A DNA stretch of 64,000 nucleotides from Candidatus Phaeomarinobacter ectocarpi (GTDB lineage: Bacteria; Pseudomonadota; Alphaproteobacteria; CGMCC-115125), in the NCBI RefSeq assembly GCF_000689395.1, contig NZ_HG966617.1:816753-880752 (forward strand), given 5' to 3'. The position numbers and the translations under genes were made by a program. Shown here piece after piece: positions 49,405 through 54,398 of this stretch; the stretch's first letter is position 1; the number at the start of each line of letters is the position of its first letter. Under the pieces are notes generated by a model. The model did not search any database. It was not told the DNA's origin and saw nothing but the letters and a program-made list of their open reading frames with translations.

Positions 49405-49494
49405 GAGAATACCTTTCTGGTGCTGACAATGTGTCAGCTGCAATCGGTCGGCGAACCATACACAAAGGCTATGTTGCTCTGCAATATAAGAAGA

Positions 49495-51534
49495 ATGCAG
49501 CCCATCCCAACCCTGATTCGGCCTGACAGACGCTTTTTGTGGTCATTTCGCGTGCCATCACCCCGAAACCTCATCGTGGCGGTGATTGGTTTGGGGGGAG
49601 CACTCATTCTGAATCCTGCATTCGGTGCCGCTCAGGAGAGTGCAGCAGCTCAATCCAGCCCGCCTTGTCCCATATGTGAGATCAGCAGGTCGCTCGCGGG
49701 CGATCTGGCGGACAAGGCAGCAAATCTCAACAGCAAGGCACAGGCAGCACTGGATGCGAGCCGCATCCAGACAGACCCATCCAAAATGAGGTGGCCGGGC
49801 CCGGCACGTCTGGACAGCGGATCAACAATCTGGACGCAGCAGCAAACCGCACTTGCGCATTCGAAGGCGGCAGATCGTTCAAACCAGATAGCAATGGGCG
49901 TTGATCTGTTGGCGCAAGCTGCGGCGCGCGCGGCATCTGCATGTCTGATGGAAAATATCTGCAGCGCATCTCACCGCGTGATCACACCAGCATCCCCTGC
50001 CTGCGCGGTTATTGGCGGCGACCAGATGGTGGACCTTGATCGCGTCCTGTCACCCATCCGCGCGACAACACGGGCACTGGAAACCGAAGCACTCACCTGC
50101 TCGGCCATGCCGTGCCCCGGCGCTGACTGCACGGCACGTCACGTCCTGCTGGAAAGCGCCGCTTTTGCAGATGGCATCTTGAGTGCTGCCGTTGGGGAAA
50201 CATCTGAAACGGTGGTTGAAGCCGTGCCGCCTGACCTCACCCACACCTCGGACGCAGCAACCGTGTCCGTTAGCATGTCCGGCCTTCAAGCCTTGTCGCG
50301 CCTGGCAGAGATCTTCGATACGACCGGTCTTGATCCGCAGGGGACACAGGAGCTGGCCGCAAGCCTGGCCAACATCGAAAAAAATTTGATCAAGCCGGTT
50401 TCGGGGGAAGGGCGTCCTCCGCGCTGGCGGCGCGTCTCGCTCCGCCTGGCACTTGCCGGCATGCGCGATGCGCTGGGCAGTCTGCGTCTGGAAAAGCGTG
50501 TGTCCCAGCCTGCAGCATGGGAGCGGGCAGCAGGCCGCCTTGAAACAGCGATGAAATCTCTCATGCGCCTTGAACGCACAAAGCCGGTAGATGCAGGGGC
50601 GAAAGCGACCCATGCCTTATCCTGTCCCGGCGTTGACCCGCAGCTGACACGAACTCTCTTTCAGTTGCGCCGGGCGATCAATGCGTCCGCCGTTTGCTCT
50701 GTGCGCAGCGGGTGCAGCGCGCAGGAGGCGATTGATCAGGGCACACAGCGGGCAGCTGTGTTGGTTGGCAAGCCGGTGCTGGAGCCAAGGCTTGAGTTGA
50801 TCAAGACCCTTGAAGAAGAAGTGGCGATCAGCCCTGCGGTGCTCAGTGACGCCGGTGTGTCCGCTGAGCCCGTGCCTGGCATTTCATTGACGCGTACGGC
50901 CTACCAGCAGGGCAGCGCGATCGAGCTTGATCTGGAAATCCGCAACAACCGGTGCCTCGCCAATGGTGGTCATGTGGCTCTCGTACCGTTGGATGAAGCG
51001 AACGGTGCGATTGCCATATCGGTTGATCTGCTTGCCGACACAGTCGAGCAGGCGGAAGTTTCAGGCGATCCAAAATCGCGCCTGCTTTTCCGCGCCCCGC
51101 CGGAGGGTTCTTACACCGCGGCTGTCTATGCTGGAGCTGCGGAAGGCGGCGCGCTTCTGGCGGCAACGCCACTGCGTGTCACCAAGCCTGAGCCGCACCG
51201 CTGCGACGGGTGGACCGGCGTCTGGCGGACCGAGTTTGGGCGCCTCGTCACTGTGCAGCACGATGATGAAACGGTTACCGGGTCATATGGCCGGGATCCC
51301 GGTGTGCAGCCAGGTTTTTTGTTTGGCCGTATACGGAATACCCAACTGCGCGGTGTGTGGGTGTCAGAAATCAGTTCCGGCGGCGCGCGCCTGACACTTG
51401 AGGGCGATGGCGTGTTTCGCGGCAGTTGGGGCCTGTCACCGGATCAGATCACAAATGGCGGCCGCTGGTCGGGCGTCTGCATCGCCCAGGCGCCTGACGA
51501 TCAGTCCCCCGAAGGGTCCATGGATGCGAATTAG
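49495..51534 (+). CDS. Large secreted Cys-rich protein of unknown function
   Basis: 679 aa. An N-terminal basic stretch and hydrophobic segment (LIVAVIGLGGALILNPAFG) form a likely signal peptide. Paired cysteines occur (CPIC, CLMENIC, CSAMPCPGADC, CSVRSGC), which suits a disulfide-rich periplasmic or surface protein. A beta-rich domain near 460-565 resembles an Ig-like module. The last about 90 residues (GWTGVWRTEFG, GRWSGVC) look like a lipocalin-type fold. I do not recognise the whole. It meets the XRE gene tail to tail with 4 bp overlap. Confidence 0.75.
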   Translation: MQPIPTLIRPDRRFLWSFRVPSPRNLIVAVIGLGGALILNPAFGAAQESAAAQSSPPCPICEISRSLAGDLADKAANLNSKAQAALDASRIQTDPSKMRWPGPARLDSGSTIWTQQQTALAHSKAADRSNQIAMGVDLLAQAAARAASACLMENICSASHRVITPASPACAVIGGDQMVDLDRVLSPIRATTRALETEALTCSAMPCPGADCTARHVLLESAAFADGILSAAVGETSETVVEAVPPDLTHTSDAATVSVSMSGLQALSRLAEIFDTTGLDPQGTQELAASLANIEKNLIKPVSGEGRPPRWRRVSLRLALAGMRDALGSLRLEKRVSQPAAWERAAGRLETAMKSLMRLERTKPVDAGAKATHALSCPGVDPQLTRTLFQLRRAINASAVCSVRSGCSAQEAIDQGTQRAAVLVGKPVLEPRLELIKTLEEEVAISPAVLSDAGVSAEPVPGISLTRTAYQQGSAIELDLEIRNNRCLANGGHVALVPLDEANGAIAISVDLLADTVEQAEVSGDPKSRLLFRAPPEGSYTAAVYAGAAEGGALLAATPLRVTKPEPHRCDGWTGVWRTEFGRLVTVQHDDETVTGSYGRDPGVQPGFLFGRIRNTQLRGVWVSEISSGGARLTLEGDGVFRGSWGLSPDQITNGGRWSGVCIAQAPDDQSPEGSMDAN

Positions 51535-52127
51535 CGCGGCTTTCTGAAATACTGAATGCGCATGACAATGCGCGCAGCCCAGTCGAGCTCCGCGCCAAAG
51601 CGCACGTCTCCGCCCGCATCAAGCGGCATCAGCGTGAACAGTCCACTGTCCTCCCGCGCCACGCGGCGCAGATACAAACTGTTGTTGTCTCCGGGGACAA
51701 GGCAATCCTGAGCATGGGCCGCTGCAAGGTCTGCTCCTTCAAGCCGGTTGCCGATCAAGAGATCTCCCGCCTCATAGGGGCCGACTCTGCCCGACAGCCA
51801 TACGGCGACGGGGCGGTCGGCGGGGATATCCACCGCGAAGCCGGGAAGGTCCGCTTCCGTTGCCGTCAGTGCCGCACCGTCGCCGGCCAATGTACCCATC
51901 AGGTCAATTTCGCGGCCCTGGGTGCCGGAAATCAGATCACGCACCTGGACATCAAAGACACCGGCAAATCGCTCCAGCCAGTCAATGGAGACCGTCATGT
52001 TGCCGGTTTCCAGCCGGGAAATGGTCTGAGGTGTGGTTTCTACCTTGTCGGCCAGCTGCTGCAGGGTCAGCCCGCGCAGTTTCCGGTAGTGCCGAATACG
52101 TGTCTGCATTGCCTGCCCCCTGATCAT
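51531..52127 (-). CDS. XRE-family transcriptional regulator
   Basis: 198 aa. The N-terminal helix-turn-helix LQQLADKVETTPQTISRLET is followed by a domain reminiscent of S24/LexA-like repressor ends (VGPYEAGDLLIGNRL). The Ser-Lys catalytic pair of LexA is not evident. Starts at 52127 (GGAGA upstream) or 52109 (AGGGGG upstream) are both plausible. It is divergent from the DnaA-domain-IV gene, so it may control it through the palindromes in the 168-bp gap. Confidence 0.85.
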   Translation of the reverse strand: MIRGQAMQTRIRHYRKLRGLTLQQLADKVETTPQTISRLETGNMTVSIDWLERFAGVFDVQVRDLISGTQGREIDLMGTLAGDGAALTATEADLPGFAVDIPADRPVAVWLSGRVGPYEAGDLLIGNRLEGADLAAAHAQDCLVPGDNNSLYLRRVAREDSGLFTLMPLDAGGDVRFGAELDWAARIVMRIQYFRKPR

Positions 52128-52216
52128 TGCTCTGTCTCCGAACCTGCGTCGGAGCTTCTAAGACGGATTGCAACCAGACTTTTTTCAGTCGATTGCCAAA
52201 AAATCTATCCCCGGTG

Positions 52217-52233
52217 TTTACGCAATACGTAAA
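52217..52233. promoter_or_regulatory. Candidate operator TTTACG-N5-CGTAAA
   Basis: A perfect 6-bp inverted repeat with a CAATA spacer in the divergent region between the XRE and DnaA-IV genes. It is a plausible site for the XRE regulator. Confidence 0.45.
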
Positions 52234-52245
52234 AATATCGCAAAT

Positions 52246-52260
52246 CGAACAGTAAGTTCG
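52246..52260. promoter_or_regulatory. Candidate operator CGAAC-N5-GTTCG
   Basis: A perfect 5-bp inverted repeat 13 bp after the first one, directly followed by a TATTAT element that could be the -10 of the DnaA-IV gene. Confidence 0.4.
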
Positions 52261-52295
52261 TATTATGTTCCTATAGGATAGCGGGGAAAACCTCA

Positions 52296-52670
52296 ATGCC
52301 GAACGTAATTGACGCGAGAAGGCCAACGGCCTCAGGGCCCAGACTCACTACGTATAAGTCGCAAAGTAGGCAGTTATCACAACTTGTGCGAGCATTTGTG
52401 TCTCATCAGTTCAATGTGTCTGTGGATGAGCTTGTGTCTGCCCAGCGCGGATCCTCTGCGGCGTGTCACGCCCGCCAGGTTGCCATGTACCTCACCCATG
52501 TGGTCTTCGGGGTCACGCTCACGAGCGTTGGCGATGAGTTTGGCCGCGACAGGTCCACCGTCTCCCATGCCTGCCGCAAGGTGGAATGGTCCCGGGACGA
52601 CGTGGTGTTTGACCAGCTCCTCTCGCGCCTGGAATGGCAACTGCGCGCGGCCACCGGCAAGGAGGTTTAG
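52296..52670 (+). CDS. Stand-alone DnaA domain IV (DNA-binding) protein
   Basis: 124 aa. The core ARQVAMYLTHVVFGVTLTSV plus DEFGRDRSTVSHACRKVE matches the DnaA-box-binding domain IV, including the GRDxxTVxHAC signature; the ATPase and other DnaA domains are absent. Such proteins could recognise DnaA boxes without initiating. GGGGAA lies about 9 nt before the ATG. The downstream DUF6456 gene starts 4 bp after its stop. Confidence 0.9.
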   Translation: MPNVIDARRPTASGPRLTTYKSQSRQLSQLVRAFVSHQFNVSVDELVSAQRGSSAACHARQVAMYLTHVVFGVTLTSVGDEFGRDRSTVSHACRKVEWSRDDVVFDQLLSRLEWQLRAATGKEV

Positions 52671-52674
52671 CGCC

Positions 52675-53595
52675 ATGGCAAAAACACCTCCCTCCAAATG
52701 GCTCACACCCCCATCAGCAGCCCCTGTGCCCGCAAAACCGGTAGCCATCGCGAAAGGCGAACTTGACCGGGAGGCGCGCCGTATTCTGCCGCGCCTCGTG
52801 TCGCCGGGCACCCACCTTGTTCCGGTTCCCCAGACAAAGCGCTACGCCATACGCTCGGGAAGATCGCGCGGTGGCACCCCGCGCACCCGTGTGGACGCGC
52901 GCATCGTTCATGCGTTTGAGCGCGACGGATTGATTGCAGCAACCGGTGATGAGTTCACCCTTACGGATCTTGGCCGTGCCCGTGTCTCCCGGGACGCGGC
53001 GACCGTGGACCCCTTTCGTGCCCAGCATCAACTCGAAGGTACCCGGATGATTGACGGGCGAGGGGACGGCACAAGAACCGCGCTCACGCCCATGCGCGTA
53101 AACCTAGCGGAAACACCGCTTGGGTGGCTGCGTCGCCGCAAAGGTGCCAACGGCAAGGCGCTCATTTCACAAAACCAGTTTGAGGCCGGTGAAAAACTGC
53201 GCGCGGATTTCACCAGCGCCCAGATGACCCAGCGGGTGACCGCGGACTGGTCCGTCCAGCTCGACGGCAATCGCCGCAACGCGAATGAGGGTCTGAATGT
53301 CAGCGAAAAAGCACTGGCCGCACGCCAGCGCTTCTATAAGGCATTGGATGCCGTCGGGCCCGGCCTCGCGGAACCGCTGGTGGATGTGTGTTGCTACCTG
53401 AGCGGCCTTGAAGATGCCGAGCGACGCATGGGGTGGCCGCAACGCTCAGGCAAAGTCGTGCTCGCCATCGCACTGGAGCGTCTGGCTGGCTATTACGGCT
53501 TCAATGGATCATCTGGCGGGCGAAACAGGTCCAGCTACGTTTGGCATGCGCCGGACGCACCCGAGATGGACCCGCCGCCGGAATCGCAGGCGTGA
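52675..53595 (+). CDS. DUF6456-domain protein
   Basis: 306 aa, soluble. A winged-helix-like region (RIVHAFERDGLIAATGDEFT) is followed by the DUF6456 signature TPLGWLRRRKG, then LISQNQFEAGEKLRADFTSA and a C-terminal segment LAIALERLAGYYG. In Rhizobiales this domain often follows a DnaA-like gene; function unknown. The start has AAGGAGG about 9 nt upstream, overlapping the end of the preceding gene. Same operon as the DnaA-IV gene. Confidence 0.82.
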   Translation: MAKTPPSKWLTPPSAAPVPAKPVAIAKGELDREARRILPRLVSPGTHLVPVPQTKRYAIRSGRSRGGTPRTRVDARIVHAFERDGLIAATGDEFTLTDLGRARVSRDAATVDPFRAQHQLEGTRMIDGRGDGTRTALTPMRVNLAETPLGWLRRRKGANGKALISQNQFEAGEKLRADFTSAQMTQRVTADWSVQLDGNRRNANEGLNVSEKALAARQRFYKALDAVGPGLAEPLVDVCCYLSGLEDAERRMGWPQRSGKVVLAIALERLAGYYGFNGSSGGRNRSSYVWHAPDAPEMDPPPESQA

Positions 53596-53599
53596 GGGG

Positions 53600-53962
53600 T
53601 CAGCTAATCAAGAACGGTGTTGCAAGCAGGGCGGCTATGACGAACTCAAATGCGGTGCCGCCGTAATTGGCTCCGTTGGCCGCGCGATCAATCACCATCG
53701 ACACAAGTCGCACAATACCGGTCAATCCCCAGCCGCAGGCGAGCGTCACAAAAGCCGTGTCGCTGCCGGTTACAAGGGCAAACGCGTGCCCCCCGGCGAA
53801 CACGCCCCCATAGGTTGCCCGAACTTCGGAAATTGAATGCGGCAATGCGTCGTCAATCTTGATCCCGACAAGCTTTGCCGCGCCATAGGGACGAAAAATA
53901 GCAAACAGCCCAAGCCCCAGCCCGATGACACCGCCAATGTAAGGCAGGACATAAAGACCCAT
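53600..53962 (-). CDS. Small membrane protein, DUF4345-like
   Basis: 120 aa with about four hydrophobic segments and a central acidic stretch (IDDALPHSISEVRATYGG). It resembles DUF4345. It begins one base after the sufE stop codon, so the two are one operon, and is convergent with the DUF6456 gene. Confidence 0.65.
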   Translation of the reverse strand: MGLYVLPYIGGVIGLGLGLFAIFRPYGAAKLVGIKIDDALPHSISEVRATYGGVFAGGHAFALVTGSDTAFVTLACGWGLTGIVRLVSMVIDRAANGANYGGTAFEFVIAALLATPFLIS

Positions 53963-53963
53963 G

Positions 53964-54398
53964 CTAGGCGACCCCGGCGTCTGCCAGAGCTGCAGAGGCA
54001 TCGGCCTGAATTCGACCGACCATCGCGTGCAGACCATTTGAGCGTTGTGGACTTAGATGTTCATCAAGACCGATCTGCTGAAAAACCGGGTCCGCCGGTG
54101 TTTTGGCGATCTCGGAAGCCGGACGTCCTGAATACAGCCGCAGCACAATCGCAATGAGCCCGCGCACAATATGGGCATCACTGTCGCCAATGAAGGTAAG
54201 AACCGGCTCACCATTGTCGCCCCTGGCAACATGGGTCTGGAGCCAAACCTGGCTCACACAGCCTTTTACCTTGTTTGCGTCCGAGTGTTCTGCCTCTGGC
54301 AGTGGCTCAAGGTCTTTGCCCAGCTCGATCACATACCGATACCGGTCTTCCCAATCATCAAGATAGGAAAAGTCGTCAATCAGATCGTTGATACTCAC
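53964..54398 (-). CDS. sufE: Cysteine desulfuration protein SufE
   Basis: 144 aa. SufE takes sulfur from the desulfurase SufS for Fe-S cluster assembly. The sulfur-accepting cysteine is in VKGCVSQVWL (about residue 47). The length and overall pattern (GLHAMVGRI at the end) fit. It is followed closely by the DUF4345-like gene. Confidence 0.92.
   Translation of the reverse strand: MSINDLIDDFSYLDDWEDRYRYVIELGKDLEPLPEAEHSDANKVKGCVSQVWLQTHVARGDNGEPVLTFIGDSDAHIVRGLIAIVLRLYSGRPASEIAKTPADPVFQQIGLDEHLSPQRSNGLHAMVGRIQADASAALADAGVA

Follow-up and report, generated by a model that had tools for sequence, protein, structure and literature searches.

The closest described systems are the master switches of gene transfer agents (GTAs), which we identified through a literature search on the protein family DUF6456. 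GTAs are particles resembling phages that move bacterial DNA from cell to cell. In Caulobacter, GafY is homologous to domain IV of DnaA, GafZ is its partner and RogA is a LexA-like repressor of gafYZ (PMC9632790, PMC11150451). Rhodobacter has both parts in one protein, GafA, which activates the agent RcGTA (PMC6363796, PMC9638019), while in Hyphomicrobiales gafY and gafZ are mostly split, with sufE downstream and a helix-turn-helix (HTH) gene upstream (PMC9638019). In the published passages available to us, GTA promoter activation, antitermination by GafZ and the GafY-GafZ complex are experimental in Caulobacter only. The Caulobacter GafY element has been mapped, yet its consensus motif was not predictable by MEME (PMC11150451), and the natural triggers of GTA activation have been called elusive (PMC13236601). 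A bearing of LexA on GTAs is already known: LexA is required for RcGTA and is thought to act through CckA, and LexA sites have been predicted in the GTA cluster of Dinoroseobacter. Passages of PMC6473078 and PMC10688885 were also drawn on.

Here we analyzed a stretch of 64,000 nucleotides of Candidatus Phaeomarinobacter ectocarpi (contig NZ_HG966617.1; below, the window), in which a gene for a DnaA domain IV-only protein is followed by a DUF6456 gene and faced by a divergent HTH regulator gene. We consider it very likely that gafY and gafZ form an operon here, opposite a divergent rogA-like gene, that the locus is a GTA master switch, and that its GTA cluster has been lost from this genome. 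This confidence is meant for what the module is and for its lost target, and does not extend to the assignment of motifs. A GafYZ/RogA switch is of a known kind. What is new is that the GTA cluster has been cleanly lost while the switch was kept, together with candidate promoter motifs that have comparative support.

A gafYZ operon facing a rogA-like gene

Gene identity, architecture and synteny were observed directly, as were the deletion and the motif statistics given further below. The original prediction, made from the letters of the window, described a 124-aa protein with the DnaA-box-recognition domain alone, a DUF6456 gene directly after it and a divergent HTH regulator, and we confirmed each of these. 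The gafY product matched PF08299 (Bac_DnaA_C, E 4.8e-18) as its only Pfam match over the cut-off, and no AAA+ domain was found by the Pfam scan. The reading frame of gafZ starts 4 nt past the gafY stop, and the Shine-Dalgarno-like AAGGAGG at the end of gafY suggests translational coupling of the two genes. The gafZ product matched DUF6456 (PF20057) with E 2.5e-50. On the other side of a 168-nt gap lies the divergent gene, which encodes an XRE protein (HTH_3, E 1.9e-10). The same scan found the synteny of Hyphomicrobiales at this locus, with sufE downstream and the HTH gene upstream.

The closest solved structure for GafY by sequence was domain IV of E. coli DnaA (1j1v, E 3e-9). The contacts listed for E. 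coli DnaA are R399, P423, D433, H434, T435 and H439 (PMC7561715, a paper on C. difficile DnaA). Aligned with DnaA domain IV, GafY retains the equivalents of R399, D433 and H439 and has H434 changed to R, T435 to S and P423 to T (the last according to the 1j1v alignment). Without AAA+ and with H434 changed to R, GafY does not show the features of the DnaA class, namely the AAA+ domain and the DnaA-box recognition residues. One other Bac_DnaA_C match was present in the genome, in a 525-aa frame at the contig start, which was taken as the normal dnaA. Elsewhere, we noted a further domain IV-only protein outside a gafYZ pair, in a 110-aa frame (G046 C35:14382-14585, Bac_DnaA_C, E 2.4e-26) of a genome without DUF6456.

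The AlphaFold model of GafZ (pLDDT 79.3) has in its N-terminal half a helix (75-83) followed by short strands (87-90 and 93-96). This arrangement is compatible with the winged-helix-like region that the original prediction had placed in the DUF6456 protein, although Foldseek of the whole model against the PDB gave no significant matches at E <= 0.001. The family phrog_31864 gave weak matches to both proteins, its N-terminal part aligning with GafY (E 0.025) and its C-terminal part with GafZ (E 0.024), as would be expected of a fused GafY-GafZ form. On an IMG/VR contig, a DUF6456 protein is encoded just upstream of the small terminase, large terminase and portal genes (L163:4560-5402); judged by this context, a phage late-gene regulator may be the ancestor of GafZ.

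The XRE protein combines an N-terminal HTH with a LexA/cI-like C-terminal domain, as RogA does, according to Pfam, alignment and model. Its AlphaFold model (pLDDT 79.8) matched the lambda-186 hybrid repressor, lambda cI and LexA. The protein had no S24 Pfam matches, and in the sequence alignment no conserved Ser was seen ahead of the AGD(L/I)L region. By analogy, the divergent gene is a candidate for a RogA-like repressor of the gafYZ promoter. Against this weighs that Caulobacter rogA is, by locus number, unlinked to gafYZ (CCNA_00080 and CCNA_01111). A rogA-type homologue was divergent from gafY in 20 of 89 gafZ loci.

These 89 loci comprise the best 80 of 586, 8 further loci and the window. 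DUF6456 served to collect every one of them, so they have no bearing on GafY-like genes elsewhere. A gafY domain was detected in 77 of them. At least 300 nt of upstream sequence was available for 75 loci, 50 with split and 25 with fused genes. There is dependence among the loci: L010 and L135 represent one place in a single genome, L005 is closely related to the window, and Ancylobacter and the Methylocystis/Methylosinus type contribute four loci each.

Loss of the GTA cluster from a genome that keeps the switch

The genome of the window (G000) is a single contig. We observed no matches in it to the terminase and capsid of the congener G002 or to DUF2460, a GTA tail gene, while the same searches found all three in G002. 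An RcGTA-like structural cluster was thus present in G002 and absent from G000. The G002 cluster comprises terminase, portal, HK97-type capsid, connector, tail tube, baseplate-hub and NlpC/P60 genes together with DUF2460 (by Pfam, 8 of 10 submitted proteins matched, one of those in the flank). On either side of the cluster, the chromosomes of G000 and G002 are collinear at 86-88% identity, save one smaller indel, and G000 is without 18,696 bp relative to G002. The junction (G000 C1:900555-900557) is located about 30 kb downstream of gafZ, outside the window and within the putative GTA promoter. The scar retains the upstream part of this promoter up to the putative -35, and 53 codons of the last gene of the cluster, 85% identical. 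Because of the promoter remnant and the 53-codon relict at the junction, we regard the event as a deletion. In G002, gafYZ (95% and 91% identical to the genes of the window) coexists with an apparently complete GTA cluster; therefore the G000 pair can still be counted as a member of the family despite its lost target.

Other relatives vary in what they keep. The corresponding region of the congener G001 has the terminase and a tail gene with a GTA_TIM domain, and the genes from portal through NlpC were not matched there; a histidine-kinase gene stands in their place (L065:9523-10860). Capsid and DUF2460 had no match anywhere in the G001 genome. Terminase, capsid and DUF2460 had no match in G003, whose genome is 81% complete, or in the DUF6456 genome G021. 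Among the 28 gafZ-bearing genomes searched, 24 had a terminase, and the remainder were G000, G003 and two metagenome-assembled genomes (one with a broken capsid match).

We further compared gafY, gafZ and rogA with their counterparts in G002. All three are open in G000, and the two genomes have identical promoter sequence from the candidate GafY box through to the start codon. The ratio of nonsynonymous to synonymous substitution rates (dN/dS) was 0.086 for gafY, 0.138 for gafZ and 0.017 for rogA (178 codons; 99.4% identity over 178 residues). The median of 22 neighbouring genes was 0.0445, and gafZ was above 21 of the 22. With G001 as the outgroup, resolvable replacements were not in excess on the branch leading to G000 (gafZ 6 vs 8, gafY 1 vs 2, rogA 1 vs 0; 14 replacements in gafZ and 3 in gafY were left unresolved), and relaxed selection after GTA loss was rejected on this ground.

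It is somewhat less likely than not that the switch is a decaying leftover, functionless and drifting since the GTA was lost. The missing terminase, capsid and DUF2460 would be in line with this, as would the dN/dS of gafZ, which could reflect early relaxation and so weighs against a maintained switch. On the other side stand the three open genes, the low dN/dS of rogA, the lack of a replacement excess on the G000 branch and the promoter shared with G002. Intact genes and dN/dS show integrity, not function. Since the deletion is undated, neither side is strong. With the GTA lost by deletion and the switch kept, this genome is a natural experiment on the question of whether the regulators act on other targets as well.

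Candidate control elements of the gafYZ promoter

The features of the locus are collected in Table 1. We observed both inverted repeats that the original prediction had placed in the divergent gap, and a third one.

Table 1. Features of the gafYZ locus and its surroundings (positions in the window).
Feature	Position	Strand	Remarks
704-aa open reading frame	49420-51534	+	zero Pfam matches at E <= 0.1
rogA-like gene (XRE HTH, LexA/cI-like C-terminal domain)	51531-52127	-	198 aa; alternative ATG at residue 7
Inverted repeat 3	52136-52154		arms 6, spacer 7; absent from the original prediction
Candidate GafY box CTATCCCCG (consensus TTATCCCCG)	52205-52213	+	k-mer enrichment upstream of split gafY; covariation with GafY recognition residues
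Inverted repeat 1 TTTACGCAATACGTAAA	52217-52233		6-nt arms, 5-nt spacer; candidate RogA operator (rival: GafY site)
Inverted repeat 2 CGAACAGTAAGTTCG	52246-52260		5-nt arms, 5-nt spacer; right arm overlaps putative SOS box
GTTC-N7-GTTC, candidate LexA (SOS) box GTTCGTATTATGTTC	52256-52270	+	overlaps putative -10 and right arm of repeat 2
TATTAT, putative -10 of the gafYZ promoter	52261-52266	+	suggested by position and conservation
Second GafY-box-like site CGGGGAAAA	52282-52290	-	inverted, imperfect; perfect CGGGGATAA in G001
gafY (DnaA domain IV-only protein)	52296-52670	+	124 aa; domain at residues 31-96
AAGGAGG, Shine-Dalgarno-like, putatively for gafZ	52659-52665	+	inside the 3' end of gafY; suggested by sequence
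gafZ (DUF6456 protein)	52675-53595	+	306 aa; domain at residues 140-275
DUF4345 gene	53600-54037		between gafZ and sufE
sufE	53964-54398	-	PF02657, E 7.2e-47; published downstream neighbour of Hyphomicrobiales gafA/gafYZ loci

The usual LexA box of Alphaproteobacteria is GTTC-N7-GTTC. This pattern was found in 10 of 75 gafY/gafA upstream regions (0.81 expected), on the sense strand in all 10, with a second copy on the other strand in one. Only spacing 7 was enriched, as the other spacings from 3 to 11 occurred in 0-2 loci. The carriers belong to about five lineages (the genus of the window, L082, L095, Ancylobacter and L010/L135), and both congeners G001 and G002 keep the element of the window. 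We regard it as a putative SOS (LexA) box. One published paper mentions GTTC and GAAC consensus motifs, and the passages returned by our literature search included none linking an SOS box to gafYZ, which is not proof of absence.

The pattern could also be a coincidence of the -10 sequence, with SOS having no direct part in the control of gafYZ. We take this as a considerable possibility, which falls on the unlikely side. The overlap with the putative -10 and the restriction to about five lineages speak for it, as does the whole genome, in which the pattern was not commoner than its reversed control (71 vs 89 matches). A coincidence would sit poorly with an enrichment confined to one spacing and with a sense-strand copy at all 10 loci. 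It also sits poorly with the 12 genome matches chosen by spacer composition, of which 4 were near lexA and genes resembling ImuA, a ligase-associated exonuclease and YifB/ComM (these last three names are NCBIfam matches below curated cut-offs, two of them from fragments).

For the GafY box, we analyzed k-mers upstream of 47 de-duplicated split gafY genes. The top 8-mer was TATCCCCG, present in 24 of 47 regions versus 0.7 expected from dinucleotide shuffles. Counted over all regions, it was present upstream of 25/50 split and 1/25 fused genes. The canonical DnaA box TATCCACA showed the reverse, with 1/50 split and 8/25 fused gafA regions, partly in one conserved block. The original prediction had suggested a transcription factor reading DnaA boxes; the DnaA-type domain opposite an XRE repressor agrees with the GafY-GafZ/RogA module, but the enriched motif is TATCCCCG rather than TATCCACA and the recognition helix differs. 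The consensus TTATCCCCG resembles the DnaA box TTATCCACA, and both copies of the box are perfect in G001. Upstream of six fused gafA genes (L106, L123, L125, L129, L140, L151) we noted that TATCCACAG, which is a DnaA-box core, precedes a conserved TTTTAACCAtTCaGTAATCA block of CtrA-like appearance.

We then asked how the box is distributed over GafY proteins with different recognition residues. As a box we scored TTATCCCCG on the sense strand, one mismatch being allowed, or TATCCCC without mismatch; the 12 loci without a detected gafY domain, the fused loci and L079 (too short) were left out. The box was present in 34 of 40 promoters whose GafY has RDR[TS]T, the standard class with H434 changed to R, and in 0 of 10 with altered residues (Fisher p = 7.8e-7). 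The altered class consists of Ancylobacter (RHRST), the Methylocystis type (RDRA), L012 and L111. When GafY was clustered at 65% identity, the box occurred in 19/23 vs 0/5 clusters (p = 0.0013); at 75, 65, 60 and 55% identity p was 3.2e-5, 0.0013, 0.0049 and 0.048, respectively. The association was also observed at loci without an adjacent rogA (15/20 standard vs 0/10 altered, p = 2.0e-4; in clusters at 65% 9/12 vs 0/5, p = 0.009; p = 4.9e-4 at 75% and 0.07 at 60%). Clustering of GafY was the sole correction of these p-values for phylogeny, and residues and motif had both been inspected before the test was framed.

Several observations weigh against reading TTATCCCCG as the GafY box. It was commoner beside rogA (19/20 vs 15/30, p = 7.3e-4; among standard-residue loci only, p = 0.18, not significant). 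It was missing from 6 of 40 standard-residue promoters, and 2 of 10 altered-residue loci (L092, L098) had it on the reverse strand. When a profile built from 32 sites was run over 30 GTA upstream regions (1,303 nt scanned), only 3 matched at p <= 0.05, with sense-strand matches in L171 and L172 and a reverse-strand match in L070. Among the 30 are a second terminase locus from G072, a weak and partial one from G075, and G045, which has no DUF6456 match. Caulobacter GafY binds the GTA promoter, and its published element has another core, ACTATG (PMC11150451). Since the box is rare at GTA regions and the Caulobacter element has ACTATG, the box may serve autoregulation rather than the GTA promoter. 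We retain TTATCCCCG as a candidate GafY box.

A genome-wide GafY regulon was also sought and rejected. The genome contains 24 exact matches of TTATCCCCG compared with 15 of the reversed control, and no regulon was inferred because 23 of the 24 are in stop-free frames of at least 90 codons (not all of them genes) and some are in an apparent interspersed repeat. In three places (L256, L260, L264), TTATCCCCG stands within this apparent repeat together with AAAAACTTATCCCCGGTCTC. Upstream of gafY genes without an adjacent rogA (e.g. L102, L112, L119, L150), TATCCCCG is followed not by repeat 1 but by a TAGGATATA...TCCTA-type sequence, perhaps the operator of a different repressor.

The original prediction had put the inverted repeats forward for testing as XRE binding sites and for comparison with relatives. 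Repeat 1 keeps this possible role with some uncertainty: it is conserved in G001 and G002, and the genome has no second mismatch-free copy of its core TTACGNNNTACGTAA. Repeat 2 does not, being intact in G002 but degenerate in G001, where GTTCG is kept. When the 168-nt gap was dinucleotide-shuffled and repeats with spacer 5 were counted, 4.2% of the shuffles had one or more with arms of at least 6 nt and 15.9% had one or more with arms of at least 5 nt; repeat 1 is mildly unusual and repeat 2 is at chance level. As a palindrome, repeat 2 is probably not functional. Perfect AT-rich repeats with 6-nt arms and a 5-nt spacer were present in 7 of 20 promoters with an adjacent rogA and in 0 of 30 without (p = 7.8e-4, kinship uncorrected). 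Repeat 1 is thus a candidate RogA operator, though GafY could read it.

In that case the roles would be reversed: repeat 1 would be the GafY site, for autoregulation and at the GTA promoter, and TTATCCCCG would be read by something else. We hold this to be unlikely, but it has evidence of its own. Palindromes of the same type are found just upstream of the putative GTA -35 in G001, G012 and G064, a place at which RogA was not found in Caulobacter, which weighs against RogA as the reader of repeat 1 and would fit GafY better. Weaker ones are present in G002, G063 and G067 and one in the G000 scar, and those of G012 and G064 resemble the gafY palindrome of their own genome. When gafY and GTA upstream regions were scored for a shared palindrome in 23 of 24 genomes, one being skipped, only G064 was above all of its 20 shuffles. 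Reversed roles are at odds with the confinement of perfect palindromes to gafY promoters with an adjacent rogA, and with the way TTATCCCCG follows the recognition residues of GafY even where rogA is not adjacent; kinship in these comparisons was handled by clustering at most. Separately, GTA upstream regions (e.g. L172, L174) carry a conserved AGCGTSACGCT-type inverted repeat beside TTGNCA, with GCGTCACGC in 12 of 30 (1.0 expected), at a position recalling the published GafZ element between -35 and -10.

The suggestion that the unit could modulate origin firing, with GafY as a free DnaA DNA-binding domain competing with DnaA at DnaA boxes, was rejected as very improbable: the clear homology to DnaA domain IV with its retained R399, D433 and H439 equivalents is outweighed by the changed recognition residues, the rarity of TATCCACA next to TATCCCCG in split-gafY promoters, the operon with the GafZ/GafA domain DUF6456, the separate dnaA, and the proposal of the Caulobacter authors, in the passages available, that GafY does not act on oriC via DnaA (PMC9632790).

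Comparison with known systems

With a GafYZ/RogA module as the preferred reading, the locus could work as follows. RogA, LexA/cI-like and probably unable to self-cleave, would keep the gafYZ promoter off, most likely via repeat 1. With gafYZ switched on, GafY, as a DnaA domain IV whose recognition helix is altered, would recruit RNA polymerase and boost its own operon, most likely via TTATCCCCG beside repeat 1. GafZ would be loaded at the GTA promoter and take the polymerase past terminators. With a LexA box over the -10, DNA damage would lift a second brake. As the GTA structural cluster is deleted here, the switch would be left without its main target. Repression, activation and antitermination in this scheme are taken from the work on Caulobacter and Rhodobacter; which protein reads which motif, control by LexA and the present-day use of the switch are what we infer for this genome. 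A bolder version is that the recognition helix was recoded (H434 to R) to read TTATCCCCG instead of TTATCCACA, that LexA acts directly on gafYZ in about five alphaproteobacterial lineages, so that DNA damage is a natural GTA trigger, and that the switch outlived its agent and now controls something else; taken together, this appears doubtful.

Four known systems bear on this locus, besides the structure of DnaA domain IV. It shares with Caulobacter GafY-GafZ a DnaA domain IV-type GafY followed by GafZ, in split genes, and a LexA-like repressor. It differs in that rogA is adjacent and divergent, the promoter has the candidate box TTATCCCCG and a putative SOS box, and the GTA cluster is deleted. 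The DnaA-like and DUF6456 regions are also those of R. capsulatus GafA, which however is fused, has a shorter DnaA-like part with other recognition residues, and has a CtrA site in its promoter. RogA (CCNA_00080), which represses gafYZ in Caulobacter, has the same HTH and LexA/cI-like domains, whereas here the gene is linked to gafYZ; the likeness is to the published description of Caulobacter RogA. The viral locus L163 likewise encodes a DUF6456 protein immediately ahead of terminase and portal, where a late-gene regulator would be expected, but its context is phage-like and 0 of 5 scanned open reading frames matched a DnaA-type or XRE domain. With DnaA domain IV (1j1v), GafY has in common the sequence family, the HTH and several base-contact residues, and it differs by the missing AAA+, the change of H434 to R and the candidate box TTATCCCCG versus TTATCCACA.

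In summary, for GafY the comparison yields a short, testable candidate sequence, and for the natural triggers of GTA activation it points to the SOS response.

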